Shown: positions 6,539 through 27,492 of the stretch, piece by piece
Layout: each line of letters begins with the position of its first letter
Position numbering within the stretch: position 1 is the first letter of the stretch
From: a virus
DNA: 27,492 nucleotides
IMG/VR virus record: IMGVR_UViG_3300021962_000520
Coordinates: 1-27,492 of that record
Strand: one strand, 5' to 3'
Position numbers and translations under genes: made by a program
Notes under the pieces: generated by a model
What the model was told of the DNA's origin: nothing
What the model saw: only the letters and a program-made list of their open reading frames with translations
Database searches by the model: none

Positions 6539-6916
6539 TTATCCTATTTCATCATCTAAATGATCTGGAATACCGTCACCATCTACATCAGTAATCTCAC
6601 TATATCCTAAAGCTTTCATAAACTGGGCAACTCTTTCTTTTAAATCATTATCACTGTCAGCAAACCAATCTTCTTTAATATTATCATGGCTTAATACAGT
6701 AGTTAAAGCTGTATAAAGACTATCAATATGTTCTACTAAATAGATATCAGCTGCTGTAAAATCTAAACTGAAAGCATAATCATCGATTTGAGGGATTTTT
6801 AATAAACTATCTGTTTTACCTATTTTCTTTTCAGTTGGAATACTTCCTCCAAACTTATGAAAATATTCTCCAATGTAGATATATCCTTGTCCTTCTTTTA
6901 ATTGAAACTCACTCAT
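6539..6916 (-). CDS. Acidic protein with Ca2+-loop-like C-terminus, unknown
   Basis: 125 residues, acidic. It ends in DVDGDGIPDHLDDEIG, which has the spacing of a thrombospondin type 3 / EF-hand-like Ca2+ loop. The rest (EGQGYIYIGEYFHKFGG; FTAADIYLVEHIDSLYTALT) has no family I recognise. Its start overlaps the endolysin stop (TAATG), which places it in the lysis block. No signal peptide is seen. Confidence 0.5.
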   Translation of the reverse strand: MSEFQLKEGQGYIYIGEYFHKFGGSIPTEKKIGKTDSLLKIPQIDDYAFSLDFTAADIYLVEHIDSLYTALTTVLSHDNIKEDWFADSDNDLKERVAQFMKALGYSEITDVDGDGIPDHLDDEIG

Positions 6917-7746
6917 TATTTTAATAAATTATAATACTCGTTAAAATGTTTAATACGATCAGGTAAACCAATTGTTCCACCATTTACTCTTTTAGTAACA
7001 GCAGTTACAGTTCCTTGATCAGCTCCCTTATCACAAATAGCCCACAAACCATTCTTATTAAAGAACCAAGCAGCAGACATTAAAGGATATTTAGTAGCAA
7101 CCAAATCAGGATTAGATAAAATTTCCTCAGGAACAAATTTATCAAAAGCAGAATAATTATCTTTACCTGTTAATTGAATATAACCACGGCCTCTAAATTT
7201 ATATCCTTCTTTTGTAGCCTCAACTCCATTACCCATTCTACCTCCATAAACACGAGAAGCAATAGCTTCAGGTTTACGAGCGTATTGTTCTGCTAAAGCG
7301 GGTGTAAAATATCTTGGGAAGATACCTAATAAACCTTTAGAAGAATAATTTAAGTTTTCTGAAGTTGCTTTCCAACCTCCTGATTCATGACCACATTGTG
7401 CTAAAAAATGAGCTAATCTTAAAGGATTAGTAATATTAAATTTAACAGCTGTATCAGGAATTTGAGCTAATACTGTATCAGGAATATGTCCTTTTAATTT
7501 ATCTAATTTAAATGGACCCGATAAGATTGGAGTTGCAGTTAATGTGGGAGCAGTATCTGGAGTTGTCCCGAACATTTTATTCCATGTTCCGTCTCCTACT
7601 ATACCGTCAGCTGTTAGCCCATTAGCTCTTTGCCATGCCTTAACTGCTTCTTCAGTCTTAGGTCCAAAAGTTCCTATTGCTTCAACGCCTAATTTGGCTT
7701 GAAGTTTTTTAACATTGTCGTTGTTATCACCTCTTTTTAATAACAT
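6916..7746 (-). CDS. Endolysin: peptidoglycan-binding domain + GH19 (chitinase-type) lysozyme
   Basis: 276 residues. Residues 1-60 form a PG_binding_1 domain (LKRGDNNDNVKKLQAKLG; GTFGPKTEEAVKAWQ; DGIVGDGTW). After a Thr/Pro linker, residues 85-275 are a glycoside hydrolase family 19 domain: AHFLAQCGHESGGW with candidate general acid Glu121, second Glu130, and the signature FRGRGYIQLTGKDNY. GH19 endolysins cut the glycan strand of peptidoglycan. There is no signal peptide, consistent with holin-dependent release; holin-like genes lie on both sides. The start lies 2 nt after the upstream stop. Confidence 0.92.
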   Translation of the reverse strand: MLLKRGDNNDNVKKLQAKLGVEAIGTFGPKTEEAVKAWQRANGLTADGIVGDGTWNKMFGTTPDTAPTLTATPILSGPFKLDKLKGHIPDTVLAQIPDTAVKFNITNPLRLAHFLAQCGHESGGWKATSENLNYSSKGLLGIFPRYFTPALAEQYARKPEAIASRVYGGRMGNGVEATKEGYKFRGRGYIQLTGKDNYSAFDKFVPEEILSNPDLVATKYPLMSAAWFFNKNGLWAICDKGADQGTVTAVTKRVNGGTIGLPDRIKHFNEYYNLLK

Positions 7747-8487: not shown

Positions 8488-9560
8488 TAATTTCTATAAC
8501 CTGTTCGAATTAAATAATAATTTGAATTTCCTTTATTTGTAATTCCACTTAAAGTAATAGTTTGTACCCCTGAATAGGTAGCTTTTAAATTTGAGTTTGA
8601 GTTATTTATTGAATTCCATTCTGTTGAAGAAAAAATTCTATAATTCGGAAGTGGATATCTCCATGTTCTTCCTATTATTCTAGCATAAACTAAATAAACA
8701 TCTGTCACACTTAGATAATCATCATTATTAACATCCATTCTATAGTAATCTTTAGAATTAAAAGTTTGAGATAATATTTTTTGATTAAATGATTGAGCAT
8801 CACTTATCATAGGAGATGAAATAGTTAAACTACTGATTTCAATTTGGAAATCATAAACTGTAGCATCTTTAGTAGATGAGATAGCATATTTACCATTTAT
8901 ATCTGTATTAATAGTACTTTCAAAAGTATAAGTAGAAGATGATTTTAATTTAGAATAAAATTTAACAGGTATATTTTGTATTCCTACTCCTTCAGAATTG
9001 TAAATATAACCTGAATATGAGAAAGGATCTGTAGCACCAACAATTCTGGTTTTAAAATCAAATGTATTTCCATAAGGGTATGTTCCACAAATTACAGGTG
9101 AACCTGAATATTGCATAATAAATCTCATATAAACTTCACCATTATAAACTGAGGTAGGAACTGTAAAGGAAGCAGTAACTGTTTTAGTTCCTGTCCATTG
9201 GTAATTAGCACTATGGACTAACTCACCAGCATCTGTTAATACTCCATTACCATTAAAGTCAATCCAAAGTTTAAAATATTCCATGTAATTACCATTTGTA
9301 ACTCCTGTATATGAAATAGATATACTTTGTCCTGCTTTAATTCTAGGAACAGTATCTTTAGTATAAGCATAATCATAATAACCAGCAGGACTACCACCTG
9401 AAGAAGAAGTAAAACCTGTACTTCCAGCAAATGTTCTACCATTAATAGTTACACTAGAAACATACTCACAACAAAAAGTTGTAGGTCTACTAGCACATAA
9501 AGGTGACTGACTATAAAGATTTGTACTGAATAAAAATACTAATATAATTAACCATCTCAT
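8487..9560 (-). CDS. Secreted GEVED-domain protein with dockerin-like module
   Basis: 357 residues. A signal peptide (MRWLIILVFLFSTNLYS, followed by Q) is followed by a GEVED-type beta domain (about 30-173; signature FKLWIDFNGNGVLTDAGELV) common in Bacteroidota surface proteins. Next come a carboxypeptidase-regulatory-like beta fold (about 180-245) and a dockerin-like module (about 250-300): first helix ISDAQSFNQKIL, then Ca2+ loop DVNNDDYLSVTD and VYLVYARIIGR. The module is closely matched in the type IX-targeted protein at 11973-13862. Unlike that protein, this one lacks a sorting domain. The start overlaps the upstream stop as ATGA. A role in cell-surface assembly is inferred. Confidence 0.75.
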   Translation of the reverse strand: MRWLIILVFLFSTNLYSQSPLCASRPTTFCCEYVSSVTINGRTFAGSTGFTSSSGGSPAGYYDYAYTKDTVPRIKAGQSISISYTGVTNGNYMEYFKLWIDFNGNGVLTDAGELVHSANYQWTGTKTVTASFTVPTSVYNGEVYMRFIMQYSGSPVICGTYPYGNTFDFKTRIVGATDPFSYSGYIYNSEGVGIQNIPVKFYSKLKSSSTYTFESTINTDINGKYAISSTKDATVYDFQIEISSLTISSPMISDAQSFNQKILSQTFNSKDYYRMDVNNDDYLSVTDVYLVYARIIGRTWRYPLPNYRIFSSTEWNSINNSNSNLKATYSGVQTITLSGITNKGNSNYYLIRTGYRN

Positions 9561-10981
9561 ATTTTTAATTTTGCTCCCATTAATATTTGAAAATTAAGAA
9601 TGTCTTGACCAGCTATGTAAGTACCACCTCCTGTTAATCCAATTCCAAATGTTTTAGTTAATTTATAATTTAAATTTAAAAAAGGTATAATAATTGGTTT
9701 AGCATCAAAAATAGATTCTGTATAAAATTTAGAATAAGGAGAATAAATTCCAGCCATAATAATTGTAGCATCTACTGCTTTACCAATTTTTCCTTTATAC
9801 ATAAAACCACCTATAGCTATAGTTGATATTAACTCTTCACCAAATAACTGTCCATAGGTTGCTGATACACCATATAAAGCTGTAAATGATTTGATTGAAT
9901 TAACTCGTATTAATAAAGCATTTGCTGTAGTAGATTTAGGTAATATTCCTAATCCTACTGAAGCAACATTAATATGTTTATGACCATTTTTATTAGTCCC
10001 AATCCAAGAACGTATTGCTGATAAATTACCAATTTTAGCATTAACCATATAATCAGCCGAAAAACCTATTGAGGCTGTACCATCACCTTTTACACGAGTA
10101 AAAGACATAGTACCTCTAGCATCTTGAGAACCATCAGCTCTAGTTTGGACTCCAACAATATCTCCAGTAACTAAGATTGCTGGTTTTTGGGTTTCAGCTT
10201 TAGCTTTACTAGCGGCTTTAGTAGTACTAGCAGACTGTGTTTTTTGTTGTTCAGTCTTAGTATCTTCTATTTGTTGGTCATTTGGTTTTTCTTCTTTGGG
10301 AGTCTCTCCACTATTGTTATTCCCACTCCCGTTACCAGAACTACTACCAGAAGAATTACTGTTATTATTTGAACTATTGCTTCCATTACCTACTGTTCCT
10401 CCTCCAGATCCATTAGACCCGCCTTGATTTTCTGGTGGATTTCCTCCCTCTTGGCCTGTTCCTGTACTTGGATTCGATCCATCATTAGAATTGGAACTAT
10501 TATTATTAGAATTATTGTTAGGATTATTGTTATCATTTTTCTTTTTATTTGTTGTTATACTTCCTGAACCTGAGTTGGTGGTTCCTCCTATATTATTTCC
10601 TATACCTCCTGATACTCCACTTGTTATAGAAGAGAGATCTAAACTTAATAAGTTAGTAACATTACCTATAATATTAGAAACTTGGTTTGTTGAAGTTATA
10701 GTTGTAGTAGTAGTAAGAACACCTTGACAAGGTGATGTTGATTGGTATTTAATATAAATATTATTAATCCAAGTATCAAATGTACCGTCATTTAATTCTC
10801 CATATGTAAATGTTTTTATTTGTCCATAGTATGAAATAACTATAGGAGAACTCATGTCAGCATTAATAAATTTATTTTGTTTAGTGCATGGATCTATATA
10901 ACTATAGATAAAGGATTGCCCACAAAGGGGCAATCCAATTGTTATTAATATTAATAATATTTTAGTTTTTAAAGATACCAT
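9557..10981 (-). CDS. Exported protein with Asn/Ser/Gly-rich linker and probable outer-membrane barrel
   Basis: 474 residues. A signal peptide (about 1-22, LLILITIGLPLCGQ) is followed by a small beta domain with Cys pairs, a Thr/Ser/Gly stretch, then a very Asn/Ser/Gly/Thr-rich low-complexity region (about 130-230) and a Lys/Gln/Thr-rich coil. The last ~210 residues alternate polar and hydrophobic positions in short strands, ending ILMGAKLKI, as in outer-membrane barrels. It overlaps the CsgG-like gene by 20 nt and the GEVED/dockerin gene by 4 nt. It could be a surface-exposed outer-membrane protein or a partner/substrate of the CsgG-like pore. No family is recognised. Confidence 0.6.
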   Translation of the reverse strand: MVSLKTKILLILITIGLPLCGQSFIYSYIDPCTKQNKFINADMSSPIVISYYGQIKTFTYGELNDGTFDTWINNIYIKYQSTSPCQGVLTTTTTITSTNQVSNIIGNVTNLLSLDLSSITSGVSGGIGNNIGGTTNSGSGSITTNKKKNDNNNPNNNSNNNSSNSNDGSNPSTGTGQEGGNPPENQGGSNGSGGGTVGNGSNSSNNNSNSSGSSSGNGSGNNNSGETPKEEKPNDQQIEDTKTEQQKTQSASTTKAASKAKAETQKPAILVTGDIVGVQTRADGSQDARGTMSFTRVKGDGTASIGFSADYMVNAKIGNLSAIRSWIGTNKNGHKHINVASVGLGILPKSTTANALLIRVNSIKSFTALYGVSATYGQLFGEELISTIAIGGFMYKGKIGKAVDATIIMAGIYSPYSKFYTESIFDAKPIIIPFLNLNYKLTKTFGIGLTGGGTYIAGQDILNFQILMGAKLKI

Positions 10982-11657
10982 TCTTGATTAGGTTTTCAAT
11001 TACTTTAGTTGTAGCAGTCTCTAAAGACTTTCTAGTTGCTTTACCTACAGTACTCTGAGAAAACTTCATATCAAGATTTTTAAGAAATGATTCACCTACT
11101 TTTTGTGACTCACCTTCACCTGAACCGATATATATTTGGCCTGTCATGGCATCAACGAAACGAACTTGGAGACGTATGAAAGTAGTGACAACAACTTTAC
11201 TTTTACCTTTTTCCACAGTCTCATCTTCATCAACAGCAAAATCGGCCACAGTAACATAAACAAAGTAACGAGCAGCTTTAATCTTACCCTTTCCATCAAT
11301 GGGCTCTTCAAAGACTCCTTTTTTAGAGGCTTTAAATTGAGTAACCATTCTTTCTTTAATTTCAGATTTTTCTTCTGTAAATATAAATCTTCCTGTTTCA
11401 TCTAAATAATCTAATACTGATTCAGCAAAACCTAAACCAATATTCTTTTCTTGAAGGTCTGGATATAAAGCAAGTACCTTAGTCATATCAACATTGATTA
11501 CCTGGACAGTATATTTTAAACTGTCTGTGTAGTTTGATACTGTTGAGATATCTTTAGTTTCAACAACATCTTGCTCAGTAGTAGTCTTCATAGAACCACA
11601 ACCAGCTAATGTCATAACCACCAAGGTCATAAACTTATTGAACCATTTTTTTACCAT
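10962..11657 (-). CDS. csgG: CsgG-like curli-secretion lipoprotein
   Basis: 231 residues. A lipoprotein signal (KFMTLVVMTLAGC, Cys20) is followed by a CsgG/HfaB-type domain: VQVINVDMTKVLALYPD, the YVYVTVADF-like strand in ARYFVYVTVADFAVDEDE, the membrane-strand region FIRLQVRFVDAMTGQIY, then GSGEGESQKVGESFL and a C-terminal helix of the SLETATTKVIENLI kind. CsgG forms a nonameric outer-membrane channel for unfolded curli subunits. CsgG-type genes are, from memory, also annotated in some marine T4-type phages. It overlaps the upstream 106-aa gene by 7 nt and the barrel gene by 20 nt. No CsgE/CsgF partner or curlin gene is evident. Confidence 0.72.
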   Translation of the reverse strand: MVKKWFNKFMTLVVMTLAGCGSMKTTTEQDVVETKDISTVSNYTDSLKYTVQVINVDMTKVLALYPDLQEKNIGLGFAESVLDYLDETGRFIFTEEKSEIKERMVTQFKASKKGVFEEPIDGKGKIKAARYFVYVTVADFAVDEDETVEKGKSKVVVTTFIRLQVRFVDAMTGQIYIGSGEGESQKVGESFLKNLDMKFSQSTVGKATRKSLETATTKVIENLIKNGIFKN

Positions 11658-11971
11658 GGCTCTTCTTCTTTAGCAGGTTCAGCCTTAGCAGGAGCAGGAG
11701 CAATAGCTGGTTTTTCAATTACACGTTCTTTAATAACAGTGTTAGTACCACCATTTGATTGCTTCTGTTGGTTAGTGTTGTTGTTTTGTAAATTAATAAC
11801 AACAGGAGCACCAGGTGCTGTCTGTTCAGTCTTAACTTCATTTTTAGGCTCTTCACCACCGCCTAAGTGGGTTGCAAACCAGGCACCGCCGGCTGTAACC
11901 GCTGTAGTGATAGCTCCAATAATTGCTTTTTTGGTAGCTGACATTACGCTTTCTTCTTTTTCTTCTGACAT
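11651..11971 (-). CDS. Small membrane protein with Asn/Gln stretch and Pro/Ala/Lys tail
   Basis: 106 residues. A membrane segment near 15-34 (IIGAITTAVTAGGAWFATHL) is followed by a Gly/Glu hinge, an Asn/Gln-rich stretch (NLQNNNTNQQKQSNGG) and a tail rich in Ala, Pro, Lys and Glu ending EEEPW. The tail resembles a periplasm-spanning linker. It lies directly before and overlaps the CsgG-like gene, so it may act with that lipoprotein, for example as an anchor; I do not recognise a family. Confidence 0.55.
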   Translation of the reverse strand: MSEEKEESVMSATKKAIIGAITTAVTAGGAWFATHLGGGEEPKNEVKTEQTAPGAPVVINLQNNNTNQQKQSNGGTNTVIKERVIEKPAIAPAPAKAEPAKEEEPW

Positions 11972-11972
11972 A

Positions 11973-13862
11973 TTATTTATTTATAATTATTTTTGAAGTT
12001 GAAAGTTGTGTATCAGTTTTAATAGACATTAAGTAAAATCCGTTATCTAAGTGAGTTAAATTAACATTGTATTTATATTCACCTACTGGAATTTTAGTAT
12101 TTAAAATTTCAATCATTTTTCTTCCTACCATATCTGTAACTGAAATTTCAGTTTGGGATTCTTGTTCAATTTTAAATTGAACTACTACTTCACCTTGGGT
12201 TGGATTAGGAAATACAATAATTTTTTCTAAATCATTTAATTTAACTGCTTTGTTAATTCTACGAACTTCAACTACACCCATAGCAGGAGTAATATTCATA
12301 TCACGAGCATCATTATCTCCTACATACTTAGGACCAGTCCATAAAGCCGCTGTACCCCATTCAGATTGAGGTTTTTTAGCTATAAATTGTAAAATAAATA
12401 CTTGTTCACCATCATTAACTAAATTTTTATTAGTCAAATCAGCAGCTCCAAAAGCAACTACTCCATTAGAAGGATTAGTATAAGAAGTCCAATTCATCAT
12501 CTTTTCAGATAAATCAATTTTCTTAAATTCTAATAAAGCAGTATCATACTTTAATTCTAACTGTAAAGCACCTAATTGTTTTCCGTTAGTAAGCATTTTA
12601 ACAGGAACATTAACTAAATTACCTTCATCAACTTTAATTTTAGGCATATTAATTTCAATAGTTTCAATCACATTATCATATTGAACTGTATTATCAATAA
12701 TATAATTTTTAGCATTTACTGGATTAGTAATTTTAATAGGTGTTAAACGAGCCATTTTAAAACCAGTTCCATTAGCATCACCCTTAACATTTATATAATA
12801 AGTAATACTATCTTTACCATCAATTGTATAATAAAAATTAGTTACACCTGAAATTGTAGGAGCATAGTTAGTAGAAGAAGCATTAATAGTATTATATTCT
12901 GCTACTGTAAAGAATAATATATCTTTTTGTGAATTAGGCCAAGCTGAAAATCTACCAGCTAAACGAGCATAAACAGAATAAACATCAGCAATTGTAATTG
13001 AACCATCAGCTCCATTTACATCCATAGAATAAAAATCAAATCCTGTTGGAGTATAAGATGAAAGCATTACTTGATTAATTTTTTGAGCATCAGCTGTTGA
13101 AAAAATAGAACCAGCAGTCATTGTATCACCTTTAACAGCCATTCTAACATCCCAATAAGTTGTATCAATGTTTTTAAAGAACACTACATGACCATTAGTA
13201 TTAGTAGCTTTAGCTTCAACCTGTGTCCAAGATCCACCTGGTGCTTTCTTTTCTAAAGCAACCCATAAGTTTTTAGCATTTGTACCAGTAGTATTAATAA
13301 ACTTACCAGCGAAACGTAACATTCTTTGGTTAAAACGACCACCATAAGAGTAAACTACCAATGTAGTATCATTACCATAGTTTGTAGCAGCTTTATTACT
13401 AAATGATTGAACACCTGTAATTTTTAATGTTTTAATTGAATCTAAGGTATTCCAATTAGCTGCTGAAGTATGAGTAAATGTTAAATCAAAAGTAGCACCA
13501 TTTGAATAATTAAATGTAGAGTTAGTTCCTGTGTAAACTACAGTTACAGTTAAATGTCCTTGAGTGTTGTTGTCTGTGTAAGAAAGTACCTGATCTGTAG
13601 TAGAAATTTTTAATGAAGGAACAGCTGCTGTAAATGCAGTGTTATCATAAAATACTCTATACTGCATACCTGTAATCTTTTCAGATGTAGAAGTATTGTA
13701 GAAGTATAGAGGAGCTATAGTTTGTCCACTAGTGTGAACACCTACTTGATAACCAGAGTCAATTACCACCCAGTGACCTGTTCCTGGTGAAGTTGATGCA
13801 TTTTGAGCATAAGCTCCTAAAGCTAATAGGAGCGAGGAGAGAAATAATGTTATTTTTTTCAT
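11973..13862 (-). CDS. Type IX-secreted cohesin-dockerin-cohesin surface protein
   Basis: 629 residues. Signal peptide 1-20 (LLLALGAYAQ). Residues about 25-170 form a cohesin-like beta sandwich; 175-245 a second beta region; 252-305 a dockerin-like module (STADAQKINQVML, then loop DVNGADGSITIAD and VYSVYARLAGR). Residues about 380-535 are a clearer cohesin domain (GNLVNVPVKM; LGALQLELKYDTALLEF; GEQVFILQFIAK). Residues 545-629 are a type IX secretion C-terminal sorting domain (FPNPTQGEVVVQF; SVTDMVGRKM; GFYLMSIKTD). Host type IX machinery would export it and attach it to the cell surface. The HExxH gene lies 1 nt upstream. The dockerin loop has one extra residue compared with the 12-residue standard. 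Confidence 0.8.
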   Translation of the reverse strand: MKKITLFLSSLLLALGAYAQNASTSPGTGHWVVIDSGYQVGVHTSGQTIAPLYFYNTSTSEKITGMQYRVFYDNTAFTAAVPSLKISTTDQVLSYTDNNTQGHLTVTVVYTGTNSTFNYSNGATFDLTFTHTSAANWNTLDSIKTLKITGVQSFSNKAATNYGNDTTLVVYSYGGRFNQRMLRFAGKFINTTGTNAKNLWVALEKKAPGGSWTQVEAKATNTNGHVVFFKNIDTTYWDVRMAVKGDTMTAGSIFSTADAQKINQVMLSSYTPTGFDFYSMDVNGADGSITIADVYSVYARLAGRFSAWPNSQKDILFFTVAEYNTINASSTNYAPTISGVTNFYYTIDGKDSITYYINVKGDANGTGFKMARLTPIKITNPVNAKNYIIDNTVQYDNVIETIEINMPKIKVDEGNLVNVPVKMLTNGKQLGALQLELKYDTALLEFKKIDLSEKMMNWTSYTNPSNGVVAFGAADLTNKNLVNDGEQVFILQFIAKKPQSEWGTAALWTGPKYVGDNDARDMNITPAMGVVEVRRINKAVKLNDLEKIIVFPNPTQGEVVVQFKIEQESQTEISVTDMVGRKMIEILNTKIPVGEYKYNVNLTHLDNGFYLMSIKTDTQLSTSKIIINK

Positions 13863-13863
13863 T

Positions 13864-14301
13864 TTATTCAGTTATTATAATTTGTTTTAAAGTATGATTC
13901 CATAACCATTCTTCAATATTAGGTAACTTTTTTATAAAACTTAATTCATATCTATAACACATATTTTCTTCTTTTTTTGTATCTAAAGATTTTTCAGATA
14001 AATAAAGATGAAAACTTTCATGTATAACTACAGATGCTAAATTATTTAGTGAATTTAATTTAACATCATTAACAGAAACAACAATGGTTTTTTTACCATC
14101 ATTAGTTGAATAATTTCCATTCCAAAACTCAATTTTATTACAAACGTTTAGAAGTAAATTATATTTTGTTGAATCGTATTGTTTAATAAGATTTATAGCT
14201 GAATCTATTTTAAGGTCCCACCCATCTCCTGCTTTATCAACAATAATTTGTCCTTTGCAGAAAATAGGCACTAATAAAAATAATAGAGCTGCTAGTCTCA
14301 T
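13864..14301 (-). CDS. Secreted HExxH putative metallopeptidase
   Basis: 145 residues. A signal peptide (RLAALLFLLVPIFCKG) is followed by a small domain with HESFH at residues 94-98, inside the helix ASVVIHESFHLYL, and a candidate third zinc ligand Glu119 in the next helix (YRYELSFI). This matches a gluzincin-like core, although the protein is short. It heads the envelope cassette and is 1 nt from the type IX-targeted protein, so it might process or release surface proteins. It could also be a non-catalytic relative. A class 2 box precedes it. Confidence 0.6.
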   Translation of the reverse strand: MRLAALLFLLVPIFCKGQIIVDKAGDGWDLKIDSAINLIKQYDSTKYNLLLNVCNKIEFWNGNYSTNDGKKTIVVSVNDVKLNSLNNLASVVIHESFHLYLSEKSLDTKKEENMCYRYELSFIKKLPNIEEWLWNHTLKQIIITE

Positions 14302-14424: not shown

Positions 14425-14464
14425 TAAAATAAAAAAAAATGGTCCCCTATAAATATAGAGGACC
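14425..14464 (-). terminator. Intrinsic terminator after groEL
   Basis: Minus strand: GGTCC-T-CTATA loop TATAG-G-GGACC (14441-14464), a 10-bp stem with one mismatch, followed by ATTTTTTTTTATTTT. It lies 24 nt after the groEL stop and closes the chaperone unit. Confidence 0.85.
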
Positions 14465-14487: not shown

Positions 14488-16083
14488 TTAGAAACCTATT
14501 TCAGGATCATTTTTCTTGTCTTCTTTTTTTTCAAACACAACACTTTCAGTAGTTAAAATAGTTCCAGCTACTGATACAGCATTTTCAATAGCTGTTCTAG
14601 TTACTTTAACTGGATCAATAATACCGGTTTCAAAAGCATCAACAACATCCATTGTTTTAGCATTAAATGTTTTCTTTTCTGAAGTTAGTTTAGACAAGGG
14701 ACGATAATAATCTTCAATACCAGCATTAGACAAAATAGTTTTAAATGGAGCTAAACATGCTTTTGCTACAATTTTATGTCCAATATTAACAATAGACAAT
14801 TCTTTTTGAGCGTTATAAAGAGCAACACCACCACCAGCTACAATACCTTCAGCTAAAGCAGCTTTAGTAGCATATAAAGCATCTTCTACTCGATCTTTTT
14901 TTTCTTTCATTTCAATTTCAGAGTTACCTCCAACTGAAATAACAGCTACACCACCTACTAATTTGCCTAAACGTTCTTGAAGTTTTTCACGTTCAAACAT
15001 TGATTGAGCATTGTCAATCTGATATTTAACTTCATCAGCGCGTTGTTCAATAGCTTCAATTTCACCTTTTCCATCAATAATTGTTGTTTTTTCTTTACCA
15101 ACATTAACTGTACGGCAACGACCTAACATAGGAGCAATTTGTTGAGATGTCATTTTATCTAATTTAAAACCCTTGTCTTTAGAGATAACAGTACCACCAG
15201 TTAACACAGCCATATCCTCAAGCGCCAAAGTACGTCGTTCACTAAAGTCAGGCGCTTTAACTGCGCATACTTTAACGATACCACGCATCTTATTAACAAT
15301 AAGTGTAGCTAAAGCTTCATCTCCAAAATCATGAGCTACAATCAATAAAGATGAATTTTCAGCGTTAGCTTTAGTTAATACAGGTACTAATTCAGCAGCT
15401 GTAGATACAACACCATCAAATAACATAACCATAGGTTCAGTTAAAATTGATTGCATAGAGTTATTATCAGTAACAAAATAAGGTGATTTGTAACCTCTGT
15501 CAAATTGCATACCTTCAACTACTTCTAGTTGTGTTTCACCTGTTTTACTTTCTTCAATTGTAACAATACCATCACGACCTACTTTTTCAAGTGCTGTTGA
15601 AATTAAATTACCAATTTCTTCATCATTGTTACCTGAAATAGTAGCTACATGTTTTAATTGTTCATCATCAGTAACAGGTACAGATTGACGTTTTAGTTCT
15701 GCTACAACAATAGCTACAGCTTCTTCCATAGCCCTTTTAACTTCAACTGGATTAACACCAGAATCAATTAGTTTGATTCCTTCTTCAACCATAATTGTAG
15801 TTAATAGAGTTGATGTAGTTGTACCGTCTCCAGCTTCATTAGCTGATTTAATAGACACTTGTTTAACAAGTTGCGCTCCTAAATCTTCTACTTGATCAGA
15901 TAATTCACTGAATGATTTAGCTACTGTAACACCATCTTTAGTTACTTTAATACTACCATCTTGATCCTTAATTAAAACATTTCTACCACCAGGACCAAGT
16001 GTTGATGATACACTCTTATTGAGTTTTTGAATTCCACTCAATAATTTGTTTTTTAATTCATTTCCAAATACTGTTTCTACCAT
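14488..16083 (-). CDS. groEL: Chaperonin GroEL (60 kDa)
   Basis: 531 residues, nearly full length against 548 in E. coli. The ATP site is intact: TLGPGGRNV (28-36), TKDGVTVAK with Asp50 (E. coli Asp52), GDGTTT with Asp86 (Asp87), and VEDALYATKAALAEGIVAGGG holds the expected catalytic Asp and hinge. Apical-domain helices (GYKSPYFVTD; SLLIVAHDF) are present. The C-terminus ends KKNDPEIGF and lacks the Gly-Gly-Met tail. The protein should form a double-ring folding chamber with GroES encoded 5 nt upstream. A phage-borne complete pair is uncommon. It is probably transcribed from the class 1 promoter at 16673-16703. Confidence 0.96.
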   Translation of the reverse strand: MVETVFGNELKNKLLSGIQKLNKSVSSTLGPGGRNVLIKDQDGSIKVTKDGVTVAKSFSELSDQVEDLGAQLVKQVSIKSANEAGDGTTTSTLLTTIMVEEGIKLIDSGVNPVEVKRAMEEAVAIVVAELKRQSVPVTDDEQLKHVATISGNNDEEIGNLISTALEKVGRDGIVTIEESKTGETQLEVVEGMQFDRGYKSPYFVTDNNSMQSILTEPMVMLFDGVVSTAAELVPVLTKANAENSSLLIVAHDFGDEALATLIVNKMRGIVKVCAVKAPDFSERRTLALEDMAVLTGGTVISKDKGFKLDKMTSQQIAPMLGRCRTVNVGKEKTTIIDGKGEIEAIEQRADEVKYQIDNAQSMFEREKLQERLGKLVGGVAVISVGGNSEIEMKEKKDRVEDALYATKAALAEGIVAGGGVALYNAQKELSIVNIGHKIVAKACLAPFKTILSNAGIEDYYRPLSKLTSEKKTFNAKTMDVVDAFETGIIDPVKVTRTAIENAVSVAGTILTTESVVFEKKEDKKNDPEIGF

Positions 16084-16088
16084 AATTT

Positions 16089-16376
16089 TTATTTTTCAAT
16101 AACTGCGATAATATCTTGCCATTTACAAGCAATATATTCTTCATAATCTAAACTAATTTTTTGTCCTCCCATAGCTGGAATGAAAACAACATCTCCTACT
16201 TCAACATCTGGTGCCACCCATTTATCACTATGGAAGTTGTAAGTTCCACTAATTGCTATTACTTCACCTACCTGAGCTTTTTCTTTACCTAAATCAGGTA
16301 AAATAATGTTACCTACTGTTTTTTCTGTTTCATCAATAGGTTTAATAATAATTGTTCCGTTAACTGGTTTAATCAT
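16089..16376 (-). CDS. groES: Co-chaperonin GroES (10 kDa)
   Basis: 95 residues, the normal GroES length. The N-terminal strand MIKPVNGTIIIKPIDETEK, mobile loop TVGNIILPDLGKEKAQ with the IIL hydrophobic contact to GroEL, strand VGEVIAISG, and C-terminal GDVVFIPAMGGQKISLD and YIACKWQDIIAVIE are all present. It caps GroEL rings. T4 encodes only the GroES replacement gp31 and uses host GroEL; here a canonical GroES is paired with a phage GroEL. The gap to groEL is 5 nt and to the upstream gene 5 nt, a tight operon. Confidence 0.96.
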   Translation of the reverse strand: MIKPVNGTIIIKPIDETEKTVGNIILPDLGKEKAQVGEVIAISGTYNFHSDKWVAPDVEVGDVVFIPAMGGQKISLDYEEYIACKWQDIIAVIEK

Positions 16377-16381
16377 AATTT

Positions 16382-16666
16382 TTATTTAATAAATTTGTCA
16401 AAAATGTCTGTAAAATCATCTAATTTTTCTTGATAGGAATCAACGAATTCATCCAATGTGTATTCTCTAGTACCTAACATTTTTTGTTTAACAACACTAT
16501 GAATAGCACCACTCATCCTTGAGTAATAACCTACTACTTTGTCATTATTATTAGTTTCTTCCATAACACTAAAACACATTCCATCATAATAAATTACAAA
16601 TGGTTCTAGTTTAGAATCTCTAATAACTAAAGAACTGTCTTCTTTTCTTGGTTTACCTTTTTTCAT
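16382..16666 (-). CDS. Hypothetical protein heading the groESL operon
   Basis: 94 residues. A basic start (MKKGKPRKEDSSLVIRDSKL) leads into a small alpha/beta domain (PFVIYYDGMCFSVMEE; GYYSRMSGAIHSVVKQKML) and a helical acidic tail (LDEFVDSYQEKLDDFTDIFD). No family is recognised. It is the first gene after the class 1 promoter at 16673-16703 and is 5 nt from groES. Confidence 0.55.
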   Translation of the reverse strand: MKKGKPRKEDSSLVIRDSKLEPFVIYYDGMCFSVMEETNNNDKVVGYYSRMSGAIHSVVKQKMLGTREYTLDEFVDSYQEKLDDFTDIFDKFIK

Positions 16667-16672
16667 ATAATA

Positions 16673-16703
16673 TAATATAACTAACTTTATTTAATTTTCC
16701 AAA
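16673..16703 (-). promoter_or_regulatory. Class 1 promoter for the groES-groEL operon
   Basis: Minus strand TTTGGAA at 16697-16703 and TTATATTA at 16673-16680, with TAA at positions 11-13. It overlaps the end of the 65-aa gene. Only about 6 nt separate the -7-like box from the ATG at 16666, so the leader must be very short. Confidence 0.65.
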
Positions 16704-16888
16704 CTTTCTTCAATAATTGTAGCTTCTTCTACTAATCTAACAAACCATAGTTTTCCATCCTTTCTAAAAACATCAGTACATTGATATTTAAATTTCATTC
16801 TATCAATATCCATAGTTTTAGTTTCAGGCTCAGTATGAATTACTTCATACAACATATCATTGTTAGTCTTAATTAGATGAAATTTCAT
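16691..16888 (-). CDS. Hypothetical small protein
   Basis: 65 residues, beta-rich (KFHLIKTNNDMLYEVIHTEP; KLWFVRLVEEATIIEE), no signal peptide and no recognised family. It follows hsp20 after 29 nt that contain one copy of the 13-bp inverted repeat and a T7 run. Its last codons contain the class 1 promoter for the groESL operon. Confidence 0.5.
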   Translation of the reverse strand: MKFHLIKTNNDMLYEVIHTEPETKTMDIDRMKFKYQCTDVFRKDGKLWFVRLVEEATIIEESLEN

Positions 16889-16899
16889 AACTTAAAAAA

Positions 16900-16912
16900 A
16901 CCTCAGGGCAAA
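16900..16912. repeat. 13-bp inverted repeat flanking hsp20, left copy
   Basis: Plus strand ACCTCAGGGCAAA, the exact reverse complement of the copy at 17369-17381. On the minus strand it reads TTTGCCCTGAGGT and is followed by more T (seven in a row), so it would lie at the 3' end of an hsp20 transcript. Confidence 0.6.
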
Positions 16913-16917
16913 GATTT

Positions 16918-17343
16918 TTATTTAATTTTTAATGTTTTTAATTGTGATTCTTTAGCGAATGGAACATAAACTTTTAGCAATCCATTTTCCATCTCAGCTT
17001 CTGCTTGAGATAGATCATACCTAGAAGCTACTTTGTAGCCTAAACTAAATGATCGACGAGCAATACCTTTATGTATATACTCACAATCATTTACTTCACA
17101 GCACTTATTGTCCTGTTCTTTAGCATAACTAACTTTTAAAATGTCTCCTTCAATAGAAAGATTAACTTGTTCTTTAGTTAGACCAGTACAAGCAATCTCA
17201 AAATAGAGACCTTCTTTATTTTCGTAAATGTCTACGGGGTGAGAAATTTTGGCTTCAATAGCCGGAGTGAATGGTGAACTTGATTCAAAAAAGTTCTTGA
17301 CTAGAATGTCAAACGGTGTGTTTAATAATAATTTGTGTGTCAT
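16918..17343 (-). CDS. Small heat-shock protein, Hsp20 / alpha-crystallin
   Basis: 141 residues. The alpha-crystallin domain spans about 38-130: PVDIYENKEGLYFEIACTGL, KEQVNLSIEGDILKVSYAKE, then RRSFSLGYKV and the ENGLLKVYVPF strand with the family Gly-Leu-Leu. The tail LKTLKIK carries an I/L-x-I/L-type anchor. It would bind unfolded proteins without ATP. T4-type phages of cyanobacteria also carry Hsp20 genes. It has a clear Shine-Dalgarno (AGGAG), part of which sits in a small ATCT-TAGG-AGAT hairpin. A 13-bp inverted repeat flanks the gene, and a class 2 box lies upstream. Confidence 0.9.
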   Translation of the reverse strand: MTHKLLLNTPFDILVKNFFESSSPFTPAIEAKISHPVDIYENKEGLYFEIACTGLTKEQVNLSIEGDILKVSYAKEQDNKCCEVNDCEYIHKGIARRSFSLGYKVASRYDLSQAEAEMENGLLKVYVPFAKESQLKTLKIK

Positions 17344-21971: not shown

Positions 21972-22706
21972 TTAACGATAACCCTCCATACCTAATTTTA
22001 ACATGTCCATAACTTCTTGTTTAGCTGTTTTATTATGATCAGCAAATACACCACTTACTTCACTAGTAACCATACTAGCTCCAAAATGTTTAATACCACG
22101 ACAACTAACACAATTATGATAACTATGAATAACAACCATTGCTCCAACATTATCTTCACATACTTCATTAATAGCATTATGAATAGCTACTGTTAATTGT
22201 TCTTGAATAGCACCTCTACGTGAATAATGTTCAACAATACGATTTAATTTACTTAAACCAATTACTTTACCATTTTCTCCAGGTACATAAGCTACATGAG
22301 CTTTACCTAAAATAGCCTGATGGTGATGAGAACACATACTTACAATTGGAATATCTCTTTCTAAAATAATTCCATTATAACCATCTGATGGGAAAGCTGT
22401 AATTTCTGTTGGTAATTCATATCTACCTTTCCAAAGATCTAAAACATAAGCTTTAGCTACACGACGAGGTGTTTCCATTGAATTTGGATCATTTTTCCAA
22501 TCAACTCCTAAAGCATCTAAAAACTCACCATATGCTTTTTCAGCTTTATCAATGATTTTATATTTTTCTTTATCAGTTAATGAACGATGTTCACCATCCT
22601 TAATTAATCTGTCTAACTGAAGTGAAATACCATTAGCAAAACCAGGTTGAGCAAGTTCAAGTTTTTCTACATCAATAATTTTTCTACGTTTATTTTCAAT
22701 TGTCAT
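21972..22706 (-). CDS. folE: GTP cyclohydrolase I (FolE)
   Basis: 244 residues. Zinc site from Cys125, His128 and Cys199 (CSHHHQAILGKAHVAYVP and HNCVSCRGIKHFGAS); substrate residues in GLSKLNRIVEHYSRR and QEQLTVAIHNAI. It converts GTP to dihydroneopterin triphosphate, the first step toward both folate and 7-deazaguanines. Because a QueE gene lies at the end of the window, 7-deazaguanine (preQ0-type) synthesis for DNA or tRNA modification is the likelier use. It is about 20 residues longer than E. coli FolE at the N-terminus. It has a class 1 promoter at 22712-22742. Confidence 0.93.
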   Translation of the reverse strand: MTIENKRRKIIDVEKLELAQPGFANGISLQLDRLIKDGEHRSLTDKEKYKIIDKAEKAYGEFLDALGVDWKNDPNSMETPRRVAKAYVLDLWKGRYELPTEITAFPSDGYNGIILERDIPIVSMCSHHHQAILGKAHVAYVPGENGKVIGLSKLNRIVEHYSRRGAIQEQLTVAIHNAINEVCEDNVGAMVVIHSYHNCVSCRGIKHFGASMVTSEVSGVFADHNKTAKQEVMDMLKLGMEGYR

Positions 22707-22742: not shown

Positions 22743-22910
22743 TTAAGGTAAACAAGTAACACAACCTTTATAAGTTAAAGGTAAGTTGTTATTTTTAATA
22801 AAAAGATGCAAAGACTCAGCTGTATTAAAGGTTTGTTTTATAATTTGTCCATTTTGGCTGTATTCAATCCAACCACCATTATCCGTAAAATAAAAATTTA
22901 TTACTATCAT
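22743..22910 (-). CDS. Small protein following the fibre gene, unknown
   Basis: 55 residues from the ATG at 22910, which overlaps the fibre stop as ATGA; a longer form from 22940 would overlap the fibre gene by 34 nt and is less likely. The sequence is beta-like (INFYFTDNGGWIEYSQNGQI), ending CVTCLP with a CxxC pair. It could be a fibre chaperone or assembly factor by position only. Confidence 0.5.
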   Translation of the reverse strand: MIVINFYFTDNGGWIEYSQNGQIIKQTFNTAESLHLFIKNNNLPLTYKGCVTCLP

Positions 22911-23941
22911 AATCCAAATCTTGATCTTTGAGCGTTCCAATTTGTAGCAATTTCTGAAGAAGTTAATGCTTTATTGTAAATTCTTATAATGGCTAAATCT
23001 CCATCCATAGAAACACAACAAGGACCATTTATAATACCAGGAGGACCATTTTGCATGTCGGGGTTTGGTGAAATAGAAATATTACCTGTGACTGAACCAT
23101 TCACATATGAATAAAATTTACTTCCAGCACCTAATTCATTTTGTTTATCAAAAACACCAACAAGTTGTAACCAAACACCTGTAGAGATTCCACTACCTAC
23201 ACCACCTTCACTATAACCATTACAACTATCAGCAGGACCAATTAAATAATACATAGAACTACCATTTATACCCCATCTATAACCAGGACAACTACCAGCA
23301 TTATTAATAATTGATGTTTGACCTGCAAGTGAATTTAATCGTACCCATGCCTCAAAACTAAAACTTTTAGTACCTGAAATGGGAACATATCCATTTAAAT
23401 TAAATCCATTTGATGAATTTGTATTTAAAGCAGCAGGATTATTCATAACCCAATAACCACTATTAGTCCAAGAAGCAGCAATTGATGTTCCTCCTCCTTT
23501 TGAAGTGGTTACATTAATTCCATTACCACTTATGTCATACCAAACGTTACTCGTTCCTGGATAACTATCGCTGATACCAGCATCTAAATAACAAGTAAGA
23601 GCATCAGTTGTAATGTAAGGAAAAGTTGTACTAAAATTTTTATTCAACATAAATTTATCAGTTTGGATTGAATAATATTGAATACATTGACTAACAGTTG
23701 TATAACTAGTTCCTGCTATTTGGTTTGTGATACTAATTAATTGAGCATCGTTAGCAGGACAATAGATACTAGGACCACCAGATGCTTTATTTAGATAAAT
23801 TGTATAACCGCCTGATGGTGGGTTGATACCTGTATAAAAACTAGTTCCAGTATCAGCAGTATTGTTACTAATAAGCATGTTACCTTTTCTAAGACAACCT
23901 GCTGGTGTAGCTCCTGTTGAATATTGGATTCCGTTAGGCAT
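22907..23941 (-). CDS. LamG/concanavalin-type tail-fibre protein, paralog 1
   Basis: 344 residues. An N-terminal module (about 1-110; ATPAGCLRKGNMLISNNTAD, YLNKASGGPSIYCPAND) is shared with the protein at 24231-25205. The C-terminal part (about 115-344) is a LamG/concanavalin-like jelly roll: WYDISGNGINVTTSKGG, FSFEAWVRLNSLAG, DLAIIRIYNKALTSSEIATN, ending SRFGL. Such domains bind carbohydrate, so this is a good receptor-binding candidate. The shared N-terminus probably attaches to the virion while the lectin part diverges. It has no signal peptide. Confidence 0.75.
   Translation of the reverse strand: MPNGIQYSTGATPAGCLRKGNMLISNNTADTGTSFYTGINPPSGGYTIYLNKASGGPSIYCPANDAQLISITNQIAGTSYTTVSQCIQYYSIQTDKFMLNKNFSTTFPYITTDALTCYLDAGISDSYPGTSNVWYDISGNGINVTTSKGGGTSIAASWTNSGYWVMNNPAALNTNSSNGFNLNGYVPISGTKSFSFEAWVRLNSLAGQTSIINNAGSCPGYRWGINGSSMYYLIGPADSCNGYSEGGVGSGISTGVWLQLVGVFDKQNELGAGSKFYSYVNGSVTGNISISPNPDMQNGPPGIINGPCCVSMDGDLAIIRIYNKALTSSEIATNWNAQRSRFGL
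23751..23793. repeat. 43-bp direct repeat shared by the two fibre genes, copy 1
   Basis: Plus-strand bases 23751-23793 are identical to 25015-25057. The block encodes the conserved YLNKASGGPSIYCPAN segment of the N-terminal module and continues as imperfect identity on both sides. Confidence 0.8.
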
Positions 23942-23945
23942 TTTA

Positions 23946-24218
23946 TTAAATTAAAGAACTTGTCATTGGGGATGTCCACTCGGGTGTAGCTAAAATAGTT
24001 AAAATCTCATCGTAAGTATATTCTTGAGATTTACTTATTAAACTAGCTACTGATGAGGGTTGAGGCATATCATATTTAACAAATGTTTTTGTTTCATCAA
24101 CTGATTTTCTAACTGTATCAGCATCTGTTTCAAATACTTGATTAAAATTAATTGATGGTAATTCTGTTACGTTAAAAATAACAAAACGTCTGTCTGGGTA
24201 TTCTTGTTCTAGTGACAT
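23946..24218 (-). CDS. Hypothetical structural-region protein
   Basis: 90 residues between the two fibre paralogs: YPDRRFVIFNVTELPSINFN, then VFETDADTVRKSVDETKTFV and a helix DEILTILATPEW. It is mostly acidic and has no recognised domain. Position and the class 2 box just before its ATG suggest a late virion or fibre-assembly protein. Confidence 0.5.
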   Translation of the reverse strand: MSLEQEYPDRRFVIFNVTELPSINFNQVFETDADTVRKSVDETKTFVKYDMPQPSSVASLISKSQEYTYDEILTILATPEWTSPMTSSLI

Positions 24219-24220
24219 AT

Positions 24221-24231
24221 ATTATAAATAT
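24221..24231 (-). promoter_or_regulatory. Class 2 box before the 90-aa gene
   Basis: Minus strand ATATTTATAAT, an exact copy, in the 12-nt gap between fibre paralog 2 and the ATG at 24218. Confidence 0.5.
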
Positions 24232-25205
24232 TAGAGGCCGAAGCGACCTTTTTGAGCGTTATAATTTTGTGATATTTCAGATGATGATAAAATCCTATTA
24301 TAAATTCTATAAATACCTCCATTACCGGAAAAATAACCTTGTTCTGCCCATCTTGCTATTACAACGTTAGTAGTACCAATAAAAGAGGCTATAGTACCTG
24401 TTCCTTGAGATACATTATTTTTAAATATTTGACAAACACCATTTGAAGCATTAAAAGTATATACAATTTGATACCAGTTATTTACAGTAACAGTTCCAGC
24501 ATTAAAATCTGAAGCATAATGACCTTGGTATATATTTCCATTTCTAAATACTAAGTGTAAACCTTGTCTAAAACCTTGTTGATCAGTACCAAACATTGTT
24601 CTATCACCTGATAAATTTGTAGGATAAACCCATGCTTCCATAGTATAATTAGCATCATAAAAACCTAATTGTGTTGCTGTTTTACCTGTATTAACATAAT
24701 CATCTGCTCCATCCCACACAATCGAACCACTATTAGCAGAAGTAAACGCAGGATTATTTATTAATGTTCCATTATTAGCATTCCCACTCAAATCATACCA
24801 AGTAGTTCCTGTTGTTGGGTATGAAGGATCAAAACCCGCATCATAATTTAACACTAAACCATTAGTTATAATTCCCTCATAGTTAAAATTAACACATAGT
24901 TTATCTGTTTGAGTAGCAAAATAGTTTAAACATTGAGCTACTGTTGTATAACCGGCCGGGGAACCTACAGTTCCTGCAATATTTTTATTTGTAATATCAA
25001 TTAATTGAGTATCATTAGCAGGACAATAGATACTAGGACCACCAGATGCTTTATTTAAATAAACAGTATAACCACCTGCTGGTGAATCAATACCATTAAA
25101 AAATGTTAACCCATAATCAGCAGTATTGTTACCAATCAACATATTGCCTTTTCTAAGGCAACCTGTTGGAGTAGCTCCTGTTGAGTATTTTATTACGTTT
25201 GGCAT
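24231..25205 (-). CDS. LamG/concanavalin-type tail-fibre protein, paralog 2
   Basis: 324 residues. The N-terminal module (TPTGCLRKGNMLIGNNTADY; YLNKASGGPSIYCPAND) matches paralog 1 almost residue for residue. The LamG region runs from about 125: WYDLSGNANNGTLINNP, WDGADDYVNTG, YTMEAWVYPTNLSGDRTMFG, GIYRIYNRILSSSEISQNYN, ending GRFGL. A carbohydrate-binding receptor role is inferred. The two fibres differ most in the central lectin face, as expected of diversified receptor binders. A variant class 2 box precedes it. Confidence 0.78.
   Translation of the reverse strand: MPNVIKYSTGATPTGCLRKGNMLIGNNTADYGLTFFNGIDSPAGGYTVYLNKASGGPSIYCPANDTQLIDITNKNIAGTVGSPAGYTTVAQCLNYFATQTDKLCVNFNYEGIITNGLVLNYDAGFDPSYPTTGTTWYDLSGNANNGTLINNPAFTSANSGSIVWDGADDYVNTGKTATQLGFYDANYTMEAWVYPTNLSGDRTMFGTDQQGFRQGLHLVFRNGNIYQGHYASDFNAGTVTVNNWYQIVYTFNASNGVCQIFKNNVSQGTGTIASFIGTTNVVIARWAEQGYFSGNGGIYRIYNRILSSSEISQNYNAQKGRFGL
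25015..25057. repeat. 43-bp direct repeat shared by the two fibre genes, copy 2
   Basis: Identical to 23751-23793 and in the same orientation, about 1.26 kb apart. It could support recombination between the fibre genes. Confidence 0.8.
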
Positions 25206-25472: not shown

Positions 25473-26048
25473 CTATTTAATTAAATAAGTTTTAAAATCA
25501 CTTGATGTTGGACTTTGATTTGGAAAGTAATATTTTTCTACTCTATTATTATACTTTATAATTTTATAAAAACCACTAGGTACTGTTGCTCCTGTGGATA
25601 ACTTAATTGAAGTTGTATTATAAACCATTCTAATTTCTACATTAACTGTTGTAGTAGCTGCTAAATCACGCTCATATGCTTCTAATAAACGCCATACACC
25701 ACGATTTAAACGTTCATGCTGTAGTACACAATTTGCATAAGTAAATGTTTTATATAACATTTCTTTTGTACAATTAAAGTCAGCTGCTGGGGCGCAATGC
25801 CCTTTGTCATAAATGTTATTGGTGTAATCGTTATTGTCTGAAGTAATTAATCCTGTTTGAGCATAAAAATCCATTCCAGTACGAGATGCTTTACCATTTG
25901 GACATTGTACAGTATAAGTAACCCATTTAGGTTGCTGTAACACTTCAGAATAAACTGCTGTAAAAATATCTGTTTTAAGATAAACCGAATCCCTTTGAGC
26001 AAATATAACTAAAGGTAACAAAAATAATATTAATAATAGCTTTTTCAT
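25473..26048 (-). CDS. Exported DNA/RNA non-specific endonuclease (NucA/Serratia type)
   Basis: 191 residues. A signal peptide (KKLLLILFLLPLVIFAQ) is followed by the beta-beta-alpha-Me nuclease core: IYDKGHCAPAADF corresponds to the family DRGH motif with Lys for Arg and His as general base, then TYANCVLQHERLNRGVWRLL supplies the downstream metal-binding Asn. These enzymes cut DNA and RNA without sequence preference. Export to the periplasm suggests degradation of host or competing phage DNA outside the cytoplasm, or nucleotide scavenging; which is unknown. It overlaps the DUF1643 gene by 4 nt. Confidence 0.85.
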   Translation of the reverse strand: MKKLLLILFLLPLVIFAQRDSVYLKTDIFTAVYSEVLQQPKWVTYTVQCPNGKASRTGMDFYAQTGLITSDNNDYTNNIYDKGHCAPAADFNCTKEMLYKTFTYANCVLQHERLNRGVWRLLEAYERDLAATTTVNVEIRMVYNTTSIKLSTGATVPSGFYKIIKYNNRVEKYYFPNQSPTSSDFKTYLIK

Positions 26049-26518: not shown

Positions 26519-26916
26519 AATTTAGATTCTGGGATTTTAAATGCGCGTTTTACTTGTTCTGAAATAGGAATTGGTACTCCTTCTTCATCTACTCTTACAA
26601 AAGTCATATTAGTTTCTAATAAAACAACTTCATCACCTCTAAATACATTATATGATCTTGCTTCTACTTTAAAGGTTGCTGATGTATTTCCTATTTTAAT
26701 TAATTCAGCATATATTTTTACTAGATTTCTTTCTTTAGCAGGTTTTTTAAATATACATTTATCTATTGCTATAGTAATCATATTTTGGGTTCGGCATTTT
26801 TCCATTGCATAAGCAACAACAATGGAATCTATCCAACTAAGTAATTTACCGCCAAATAGATTACCATTGAATCCTAAATCTGATTTTTTAATAGGATGTG
26901 TTGATAGTAATTCCAT
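26515..26916 (-). CDS. Acyl-CoA thioesterase, hot-dog fold (YciA/BACH-like)
   Basis: 133 residues, the usual length for a single hot-dog domain. The signature GFNGNLFGGKLLSWIDSIVV carries the N-x-x-G-x-x-F-G-G core and the catalytic-side Asp in WID; later strands are VKIYAELIKIGNTSATFKVE and VLLETNMTFVRVDE. It would hydrolyse acyl-CoA to free acid and CoA. A phage copy could alter host membrane lipid or acyl-CoA pools during infection. Its start shares one base with the queE stop (TAATG). Confidence 0.87.
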   Translation of the reverse strand: MELLSTHPIKKSDLGFNGNLFGGKLLSWIDSIVVAYAMEKCRTQNMITIAIDKCIFKKPAKERNLVKIYAELIKIGNTSATFKVEARSYNVFRGDEVVLLETNMTFVRVDEEGVPIPISEQVKRAFKIPESKL

Positions 26917-27492
26917 TACACCGCTCTCTTAGTATCATATGAAATAATGTGGTCACGTCCTGTCCAATTATATCCCATCTCAAATGCTTTTTCTAAGCTA
27001 ATAGGATATTGTTTAATCAATTCCTCTCTATTATCACCAGCAGGCATTAACCATGTTTTATTCTTAGGAATATTCATTTCAACTCTAAATGCTTCAATTT
27101 CTTGGATATTTTCTTCAGTACCATCATAAACTGGTTTGTAATGATAATCTGTATGGTAATCTAAAGTTTTACGAATTGCCTCTTTATTCAAACGAAGTTT
27201 ATTATGTTGATCAATCATTTTCTGATCCACGAGCTTACCCATTGGAGTGGTAACGTCAAGAGCAGGAACAGAATTACTAAACTTTGGAGATAAAGATACC
27301 AACCCAAATGGGTAATCGGTTTCAATAAAGTGGCTACCTTCTGTTTCAATGGTTATACATATACCACGTTCATGAGCAAAGTGAGTTAATTCATTACAAA
27401 GATCAGGTTGCATAGTAGGTGAACCTCCAGTTAACATCATTTCTTTAATTTCTGGATTTTCATCATAAATTTTAATAATGTCATTAAATGTA
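26916..27492 (-). CDS. queE: 7-carboxy-7-deazaguanine synthase QueE, C-terminal part (5' end outside window)
   Basis: 192 codons are visible and the frame remains open through the last base, so the N-terminus with the radical-SAM Cys cluster lies beyond 27492. Visible QueE features: MMLTGGSPTMQPDLC (SAM-binding GG-x-P motif), ICITIETEGSHF, and VSLSPKFSNS (family 'LSPK'). The Met at 27440 is internal and is not the start. QueE makes CDG from CPH4, the third step from GTP toward preQ0. With folE in the same window this indicates 7-deazaguanine synthesis. Confidence 0.9.
   Translation of the reverse strand, partial: TFNDIIKIYDENPEIKEMMLTGGSPTMQPDLCNELTHFAHERGICITIETEGSHFIETDYPFGLVSLSPKFSNSVPALDVTTPMGKLVDQKMIDQHNKLRLNKEAIRKTLDYHTDYHYKPVYDGTEENIQEIEAFRVEMNIPKNKTWLMPAGDNREELIKQYPISLEKAFEMGYNWTGRDHIISYDTKRAV

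Follow-up and report, generated by a model that had tools for sequence, protein, structure and literature searches.

A Predicted T9SS-Targeted Cohesin Scaffold within a Conserved Gene Cassette of Aquatic Phages

The Scaffold Gene and Its Operon

The window (the whole stretch of DNA analysed, 27,492 nucleotides, IMG/VR record IMGVR_UViG_3300021962_000520) is a viral record that encodes a family B polymerase, an endolysin, seven tRNAs, and GroEL, together with a clamp-loader-like ATPase that was read from the sequence. An earlier note on this DNA had placed the open reading frame of interest at 11973-13862; these coordinates hold, but the strand was missed, the gene (629 codons) running from 13862 down to 11973 on the minus strand, with the plus strand of the region rich in stop codons. 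This gene, termed here the scaffold gene, belongs to a tightly packed operon in the order HExxH protein, scaffold, 106 aa membrane protein, lipoprotein, 474 aa exported protein (the linker protein), 357 aa GEVED tip, and 145 aa protein, and the cassette is followed by holin-like and endolysin genes (Table 1). The same-strand endolysin and lysis-gene context suggests that the cassette is expressed late in infection. A scan for the flavobacterial -33/-7 promoter, covering the 19-base spacer only, gave no match.

Elsewhere on the minus strand of the window, phage genes for GroEL, GroES, and an Hsp20-like protein lie upstream of the cassette (14488-17343). FolE and QueE genes (21972-22706 and 26916-27491) suggest queuosine-type 7-deazaguanine synthesis, for which the cultured phage immuto (see below) additionally has QueC, QueD, QueF, and DpdA. 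Two LamG-like lectin genes (22907-25205) match a PHROG virion structural family and probably encode tail or head adhesins. A DNA/RNA non-specific endonuclease with a signal-peptide-like start is encoded at 25473-26048 (PF01223, 3e-24), and its orthologue adjoins the cassette in immuto (gp012) and in several relatives.

Table 1. Positions of the cassette genes, the scaffold domains, and neighbouring features in the window
Feature	Position	Strand	Evidence or remarks
Endolysin	6916..7746	minus	Downstream of cassette, same strand; phrog_181 7e-65
Conserved last cassette gene, 145 aa	8038..8475	minus	
Tip protein, 357 aa	8487..9560	minus	Signal-peptide-like start, GEVED head (other heads in relatives), dockerin-like module in common with scaffold
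474 aa exported protein	9557..10981	minus	Cys-containing N-domain, Asn/Ser/Gly-rich linker, beta-rich C-domain
Lipoprotein, 231 aa	10962..11657	minus	Lipobox LAGC, CsgG-like fold (model, Foldseek)
106 aa protein, second conserved cassette gene	11651..11971	minus	One predicted transmembrane stretch; Pro/Asn-rich tail, final Trp
Scaffold gene, 629 aa	11973..13862	minus	Signal-peptide-like start; dockerin-like module flanked by cohesins 1 and 2; C-terminal T9SS type A sorting domain
T9SS type A sorting domain, residues 547-629	11976..12224	minus	Profiles, landmark residues, fold
Cohesin domain 2, residues ~397-536	12255..12674	minus	PF00963 and fold
Beta-sandwich and dockerin-like module, residues ~179-396	12675..13328	minus	Common to tip protein; hhalign; weak PF00404 matches here in relatives
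N-terminal cohesin-like domain, residues ~20-178	13329..13805	minus	Second PF00963 stretch; N-terminal cohesin matches in orthologues
Signal-peptide-like N-terminus, residues 1-19	13806..13862	minus	Hydropathy and sequence
Small exported putative zinc peptidase (HExxH)	13864..14301	minus	Directly upstream of scaffold; weak DUF5700/SprT-like match
Intrinsic-terminator-like hairpin and T run	14431..14464	minus	Between GroEL and cassette; read from sequence

The scaffold N-terminus (MKKITLFLSSLLLALGAYAQ) resembles a Sec signal peptide in hydropathy and sequence, with basic residues, a hydrophobic core, and an AYAQ end. At the extreme C-terminus (residues 547-629 of 629) lies a sorting domain with an Ig-like fold. 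The earlier note had assigned a type IX secretion (T9SS) sorting signal to residues 545-629 and had named two profiles by which it could be checked, and both match above their curated cut-offs: PF18962 (Pfam) over residues 550-627 (E 1e-12, 48.6 bits, cut-off 27) and TIGR04183 (NCBIfam) over residues 550-628 (E 3.6e-11, 42.9 bits, cut-off 23). The assignment agrees, in addition, with landmark residues that are invariant in a 60-row alignment (PNP 552-554, G580, G594, Y596, Y598, G608, Y610, and K624) and with a PorU-like fold. In an AlphaFold2 model of the scaffold built with 60 relatives (mean pLDDT 76.7), residues 546-629 superimpose on the PorU sorting domain (6za2) with a Z score of 9.9 and an rmsd of 2.3 over 83 residues.

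A count of PF18962 matches in 39 phage records, then in 45 more, and in 14 control genomes gave exactly one match per record in 84/84 phage records, 83 of which lie above the curated cut-off; among the controls only a Bacteroides matched, below the cut-off. The matching open frames in the phage records are 245-253 or 629-673 aa long, which fits a split or a fused scaffold (see below). The sorting-domain assignment far exceeds chance, and the proposal that the scaffold is a T9SS cargo of a phage with a Bacteroidota-type host is, as a prediction from sequence, well supported. A single sorting domain of this kind could flag phages of T9SS-bearing hosts in metagenomes. A tblastn search of 50,697 phage records with the sorting domain, made for further T9SS cargo, returned one insignificant match (E 0.3); this search is a weak one that also missed immuto. 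The PorP/SprF barrel was considered as a cassette partner; PF11751 had no match in nine records, with an uninformative control in that the control genomes had no match either.

The earlier note, right about the sorting domain, had missed the cohesin and dockerin-like domains that precede it, as well as the operon and the CsgG-like partner. The PF00963 cohesin profile matches scaffold residues 403-524 (6e-11, 43.1 bits, cut-off 24.1) and a second stretch too. Superimposition of modelled residues 397-536 with type I cohesins gives a Z score of 15.9 (6kgf, a cohesin-dockerin complex; rmsd 2.5, 136 residues). Homology between cohesin 1 and cohesin 2 was unsupported by hhalign, yet Pfam detects both in several relatives. 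Cohesin matches are confined to cassette scaffold genes in 20/20 phage records, often with two per scaffold. Scaffold residues 225-395 are homologous to the C-terminal module of the tip protein (hhalign probability 99.8, E 4e-29), and the module common to the two proteins contains a dockerin-type calcium loop. Matches to PF00404 (dockerin type I) are weak in the tips (0.007 and 0.016) and in the scaffolds also; they lie above the Pfam cut-off in two of 20 records, with most dockerin-like matches below it, and none is listed among the Pfam matches of the window proteins. Purifying selection acts on all four scaffold domains, with median dN/dS values over 208-211 pairs as follows: cohesin 1, 0.08; module, 0.15; cohesin 2, 0.11; sorting domain, 0.21.

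Phage Origin and Distribution of the Cassette

The cassette occurs in a large group of aquatic phages. Scans of IMG/VR identified 87 relatives of the scaffold (identity 58-100%; contigs as long as 176 kb) and at least 531 relatives of the lipoprotein, and phage genes flank the scaffold gene in viral contigs that number in the hundreds. Among 207 loci, some of which share contigs with one another, 202 have the genes for the scaffold, the membrane protein, the lipoprotein, and the 474 aa protein in this order, and the cassette order reaches far relatives on contigs up to 308 kb. The HExxH gene adjoins the scaffold gene in most close relatives, not always, and its orientation is reversed in some far ones. 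Many far relatives have an extra holin-like protein with two membrane stretches within the cassette (e.g. L137:4427-4762 and L144:8619-9017).

The domain types of the scaffold are typical of Bacteroidota, and one relative comes from a contig assigned to a bacterial bin, both of which would be compatible with bacterial contamination or misassembly, the possibility on which the earlier note had made its claim of a phage-borne gene depend. That relative, from a "Sphingomonadaceae" MAG (L083, RFPL01000028.1; contig of 16.5 kb), is the only one found among 84,980 bacterial and archaeal genomes, and its contig is probably a misbinned phage contig. In contrast, synteny with polB, GroEL, and endolysin extends over independent viral contigs and a cultured isolate, the Flavobacterium phage immuto (vB_FspM_immuto, NC_055915), which encodes a scaffold relative of ~30% identity. 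Contamination is refuted by this isolate and is scarcely credible; the phage-borne status of the gene, which lies between phage genes, withstood the test.

In immuto, a phage of Flavobacterium and the nearest relative in culture, gp013-gp019 constitute the same cassette, in the same order except for the tip gene. The gp015 protein has a cohesin and the sorting domain, gp017 is the orthologue of the CsgG-like lipoprotein (42% identity), and gp013 is a lectin-headed tip; the annotation of the immuto cassette genes goes no further than hypothetical, cohesin, or lectin protein. In contrast to the window, immuto has its scaffold divided into two genes and its tip gene upstream. In immuto and its group, gp014 comprises a cohesin-like domain and a dockerin-like module without a sorting domain, gp015 comprises the cohesin and the sorting domain, and the starts of both are signal-peptide-like. 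The fusion of the scaffold in one clade and its division in another imply that the halves act together. The simplest reading is that a dockerin-cohesin contact would tether gp014 to exported gp015, and the split arrangement is as such a tether predicts. One locus inside the fused clade (L064:1057-2724) has the scaffold as two open frames (345 and 199 aa), reflecting either a frameshift or an independent split.

Partner Proteins and a Proposed Surface Display

The lipoprotein model is of moderate confidence (pLDDT 69). A Foldseek search with this model gave CsgG proteins as all of the top 17 matches (E 3e-7 to 1e-5), and comparison with the CsgG fold gave Z scores up to 12.6. The CsgG profile PF03783 was above its cut-off in 0/11 records (best 14.2 bits vs 20.8), and a search of solved structures with the CsgG-like profile alone returned nothing. 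Membership of the curli system by sequence was rejected, with the CsgG profile below cut-off and CsgF, for which a search was made, absent. The lipoprotein is, as modelled, CsgG-like in fold and outside the CsgG family. Residues 25-109 of the lipoprotein have weak tblastn matches (E 3e-3, 30%) in two Enterococcus phages (PQ520415.1 and OR846598.1), the records of which are unannotated. The C-domain of the 474 aa protein had no match in a PDB sequence search.

The gene for the inner-membrane 106 aa protein overlaps that of the lipoprotein, with the commonest overlap occurring in 94 loci, and the pair could be spanin-like, acting in lysis or outer-membrane disruption, with the exported proteins serving to weaken the surface or to label it. 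The holin-like and endolysin genes that adjoin the cassette in most relatives are consistent with such a role, as is the similarity, very weak at E 0.3, of the 106 aa protein to an Rz-like family. However, a lipoprotein with a CsgG-like fold is not a short o-spanin, and some of its relatives are without the obvious lipobox that the window protein has. A lysis role would, moreover, leave the sorting domain, the cohesins, and the lectin-type heads unexplained, and we regard it as improbable.

The tip protein has a signal-peptide-like N-terminus and is without a sorting domain. Its head in the window is a GEVED domain (PF20009, 2e-13), and across relatives the head differs, being a C-type lectin (1e-15), PA14 (1e-5), GEVED, or unnamed "GIPSDRG" domain, with LamG plus lectin in far relatives. 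On a 55-row scaffold tree, built with the sorting domain left out, the head type changes at least 18 times. Scaffolds that are 97-98% identical bear different heads, with tips that are 26-30% identical in the middle and 64-79% identical at the ends. From these comparisons of sequence, the differences between tips are attributable to module swapping, and with lectin, PA14, and GEVED domains as the exchanged heads, a role in ligand binding is favoured.

Lectin-like domains of a similar kind are present in virion proteins of phages, and the two LamG-like genes of the window match a virion structural family, as might be expected if scaffold and tip were virion parts that are exported and attach to progeny after lysis, serving as adhesins or host-range factors. 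Against this, signal-peptide-like starts and a sorting domain are expected to take proteins out of the cytoplasm, the site of virion assembly, and no cohesin domain was found outside the cassette in 20 phage records. A place in the virion therefore seems very improbable.

We propose instead that the phage builds a display system on the cell surface, anchored by the scaffold, and that adhesion of the infected cell is its likeliest benefit, a proposal that we consider about evenly poised between right and wrong. Late in infection, the scaffold would enter the periplasm via Sec, and the host T9SS would export it and fix it to the outer surface. The dockerin-like module of the tip would dock on a cohesin of the scaffold, and chains of scaffolds may form as well, via their own dockerin-like modules. 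The tip head would then face outward, where its ligands would be glycans or proteins of neighbouring cells, of particles, or of surfaces. Help in exporting or holding the tip or the linker protein probably comes from the lipoprotein with the CsgG fold and from the 106 aa membrane protein; to cross the outer membrane, the tip may travel together with the scaffold or pass by way of the CsgG-like protein. We infer an adhesion or aggregation role for this display, in which the infected cell would stick to others and release its progeny beside new hosts. Several observations weigh against the proposal, i.e. most dockerin-like matches fall below the Pfam cut-off, the tip is without a sorting domain, the holin and endolysin neighbours leave room for a role in lysis, and the swapped heads would be compatible with receptor masking as well.

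Superinfection exclusion, which the earlier note had named as a possible role beside aggregation and adhesion, is the main rival to the adhesion reading. Here the T9SS-anchored scaffold and its variable head, at the same inferred surface location, would cover or bind receptors or titrate competing virions. The swapping of heads between near-identical scaffolds is in keeping with an arms race, be it against receptors that vary or against phages that compete, and Bellas et al. (2020; PMC7468147) have suggested exclusion as a role for T9SS cargo of another phage. However, the large cassette beside lysis genes suggests late expression, whereas exclusion is usually early, and the heads are general ligand-binding domains with no known receptor; we judge exclusion to be unlikely, if still a serious contender.

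Were the display proposal correct, phages would remodel the host surface before lysis with a fast-changing binding head, which would bear on the aggregation, spread, and superinfection of aquatic Bacteroidota. A broader version, which we put forward tentatively as possible if doubtful, is that many large Bacteroidota phages build an adhesive organelle of T9SS-exported scaffolds chained by cohesin-dockerin contacts, with an exchangeable lectin-like tip that would make binding specificity modular and a CsgG-like pore that would serve the export of the tip or of the linker protein. With both immuto and its host available in culture, the display idea is directly testable.

Comparison with Known Systems

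The lipoprotein is like the CsgG channel of the curli system in predicted fold and differs in its sub-threshold PF03783 score and in the lack of a detectable CsgF partner. Curli-type csg genes have been described in the genome of a T4-like Bacteroidetes phage (Tara), where aggregation of infected cells was proposed, with secretion systems and cohesins going unmentioned (Tominaga et al., 2020; PMC7198788). Those csg genes may belong to the same kind of cassette. The description of Far-T4 phages makes no mention of curli, secretion, or cohesins (Roux, 2015).

The likeness to cellulosomes lies in the clear cohesin fold, with its high similarity score to type I cohesins, and in the dockerin-type calcium loop of the partner. 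In contrast to cellulosomes, one or two cohesins are predicted here on a T9SS-targeted phage protein, catalytic domains are absent, and the candidate dockerin matches are mostly below cut-off.

In the open-access literature, we found nothing on phage cohesin scaffolds, on a swapped dockerin-bearing tip, or on a near-fixed cassette in this phage group, and only one report of phage T9SS cargo, which described such cargo in a cryophage as a unique case (Bellas et al., 2020; PMC7468147). Phage T9SS cargo is thus already known, and the conserved cohesin-scaffold cassette is without a description that we could find in that literature. The cryophage cargo resembles the present system in having T9SS type A sorting domains and in varying among phage variants, one of them with a PA14 domain. 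In that one phage, however, each cargo is a lone variable gene (endoglucanase, GH39, PA14). Unlike in the cryophage, the scaffold described here is constant and belongs to an operon that is conserved, with the variable head on a separate protein without a sorting domain. The predicted T9SS cargo is here a fixed member of a conserved multi-gene cassette that recurs across hundreds of viral contigs and is also present in a Flavobacterium phage in culture.
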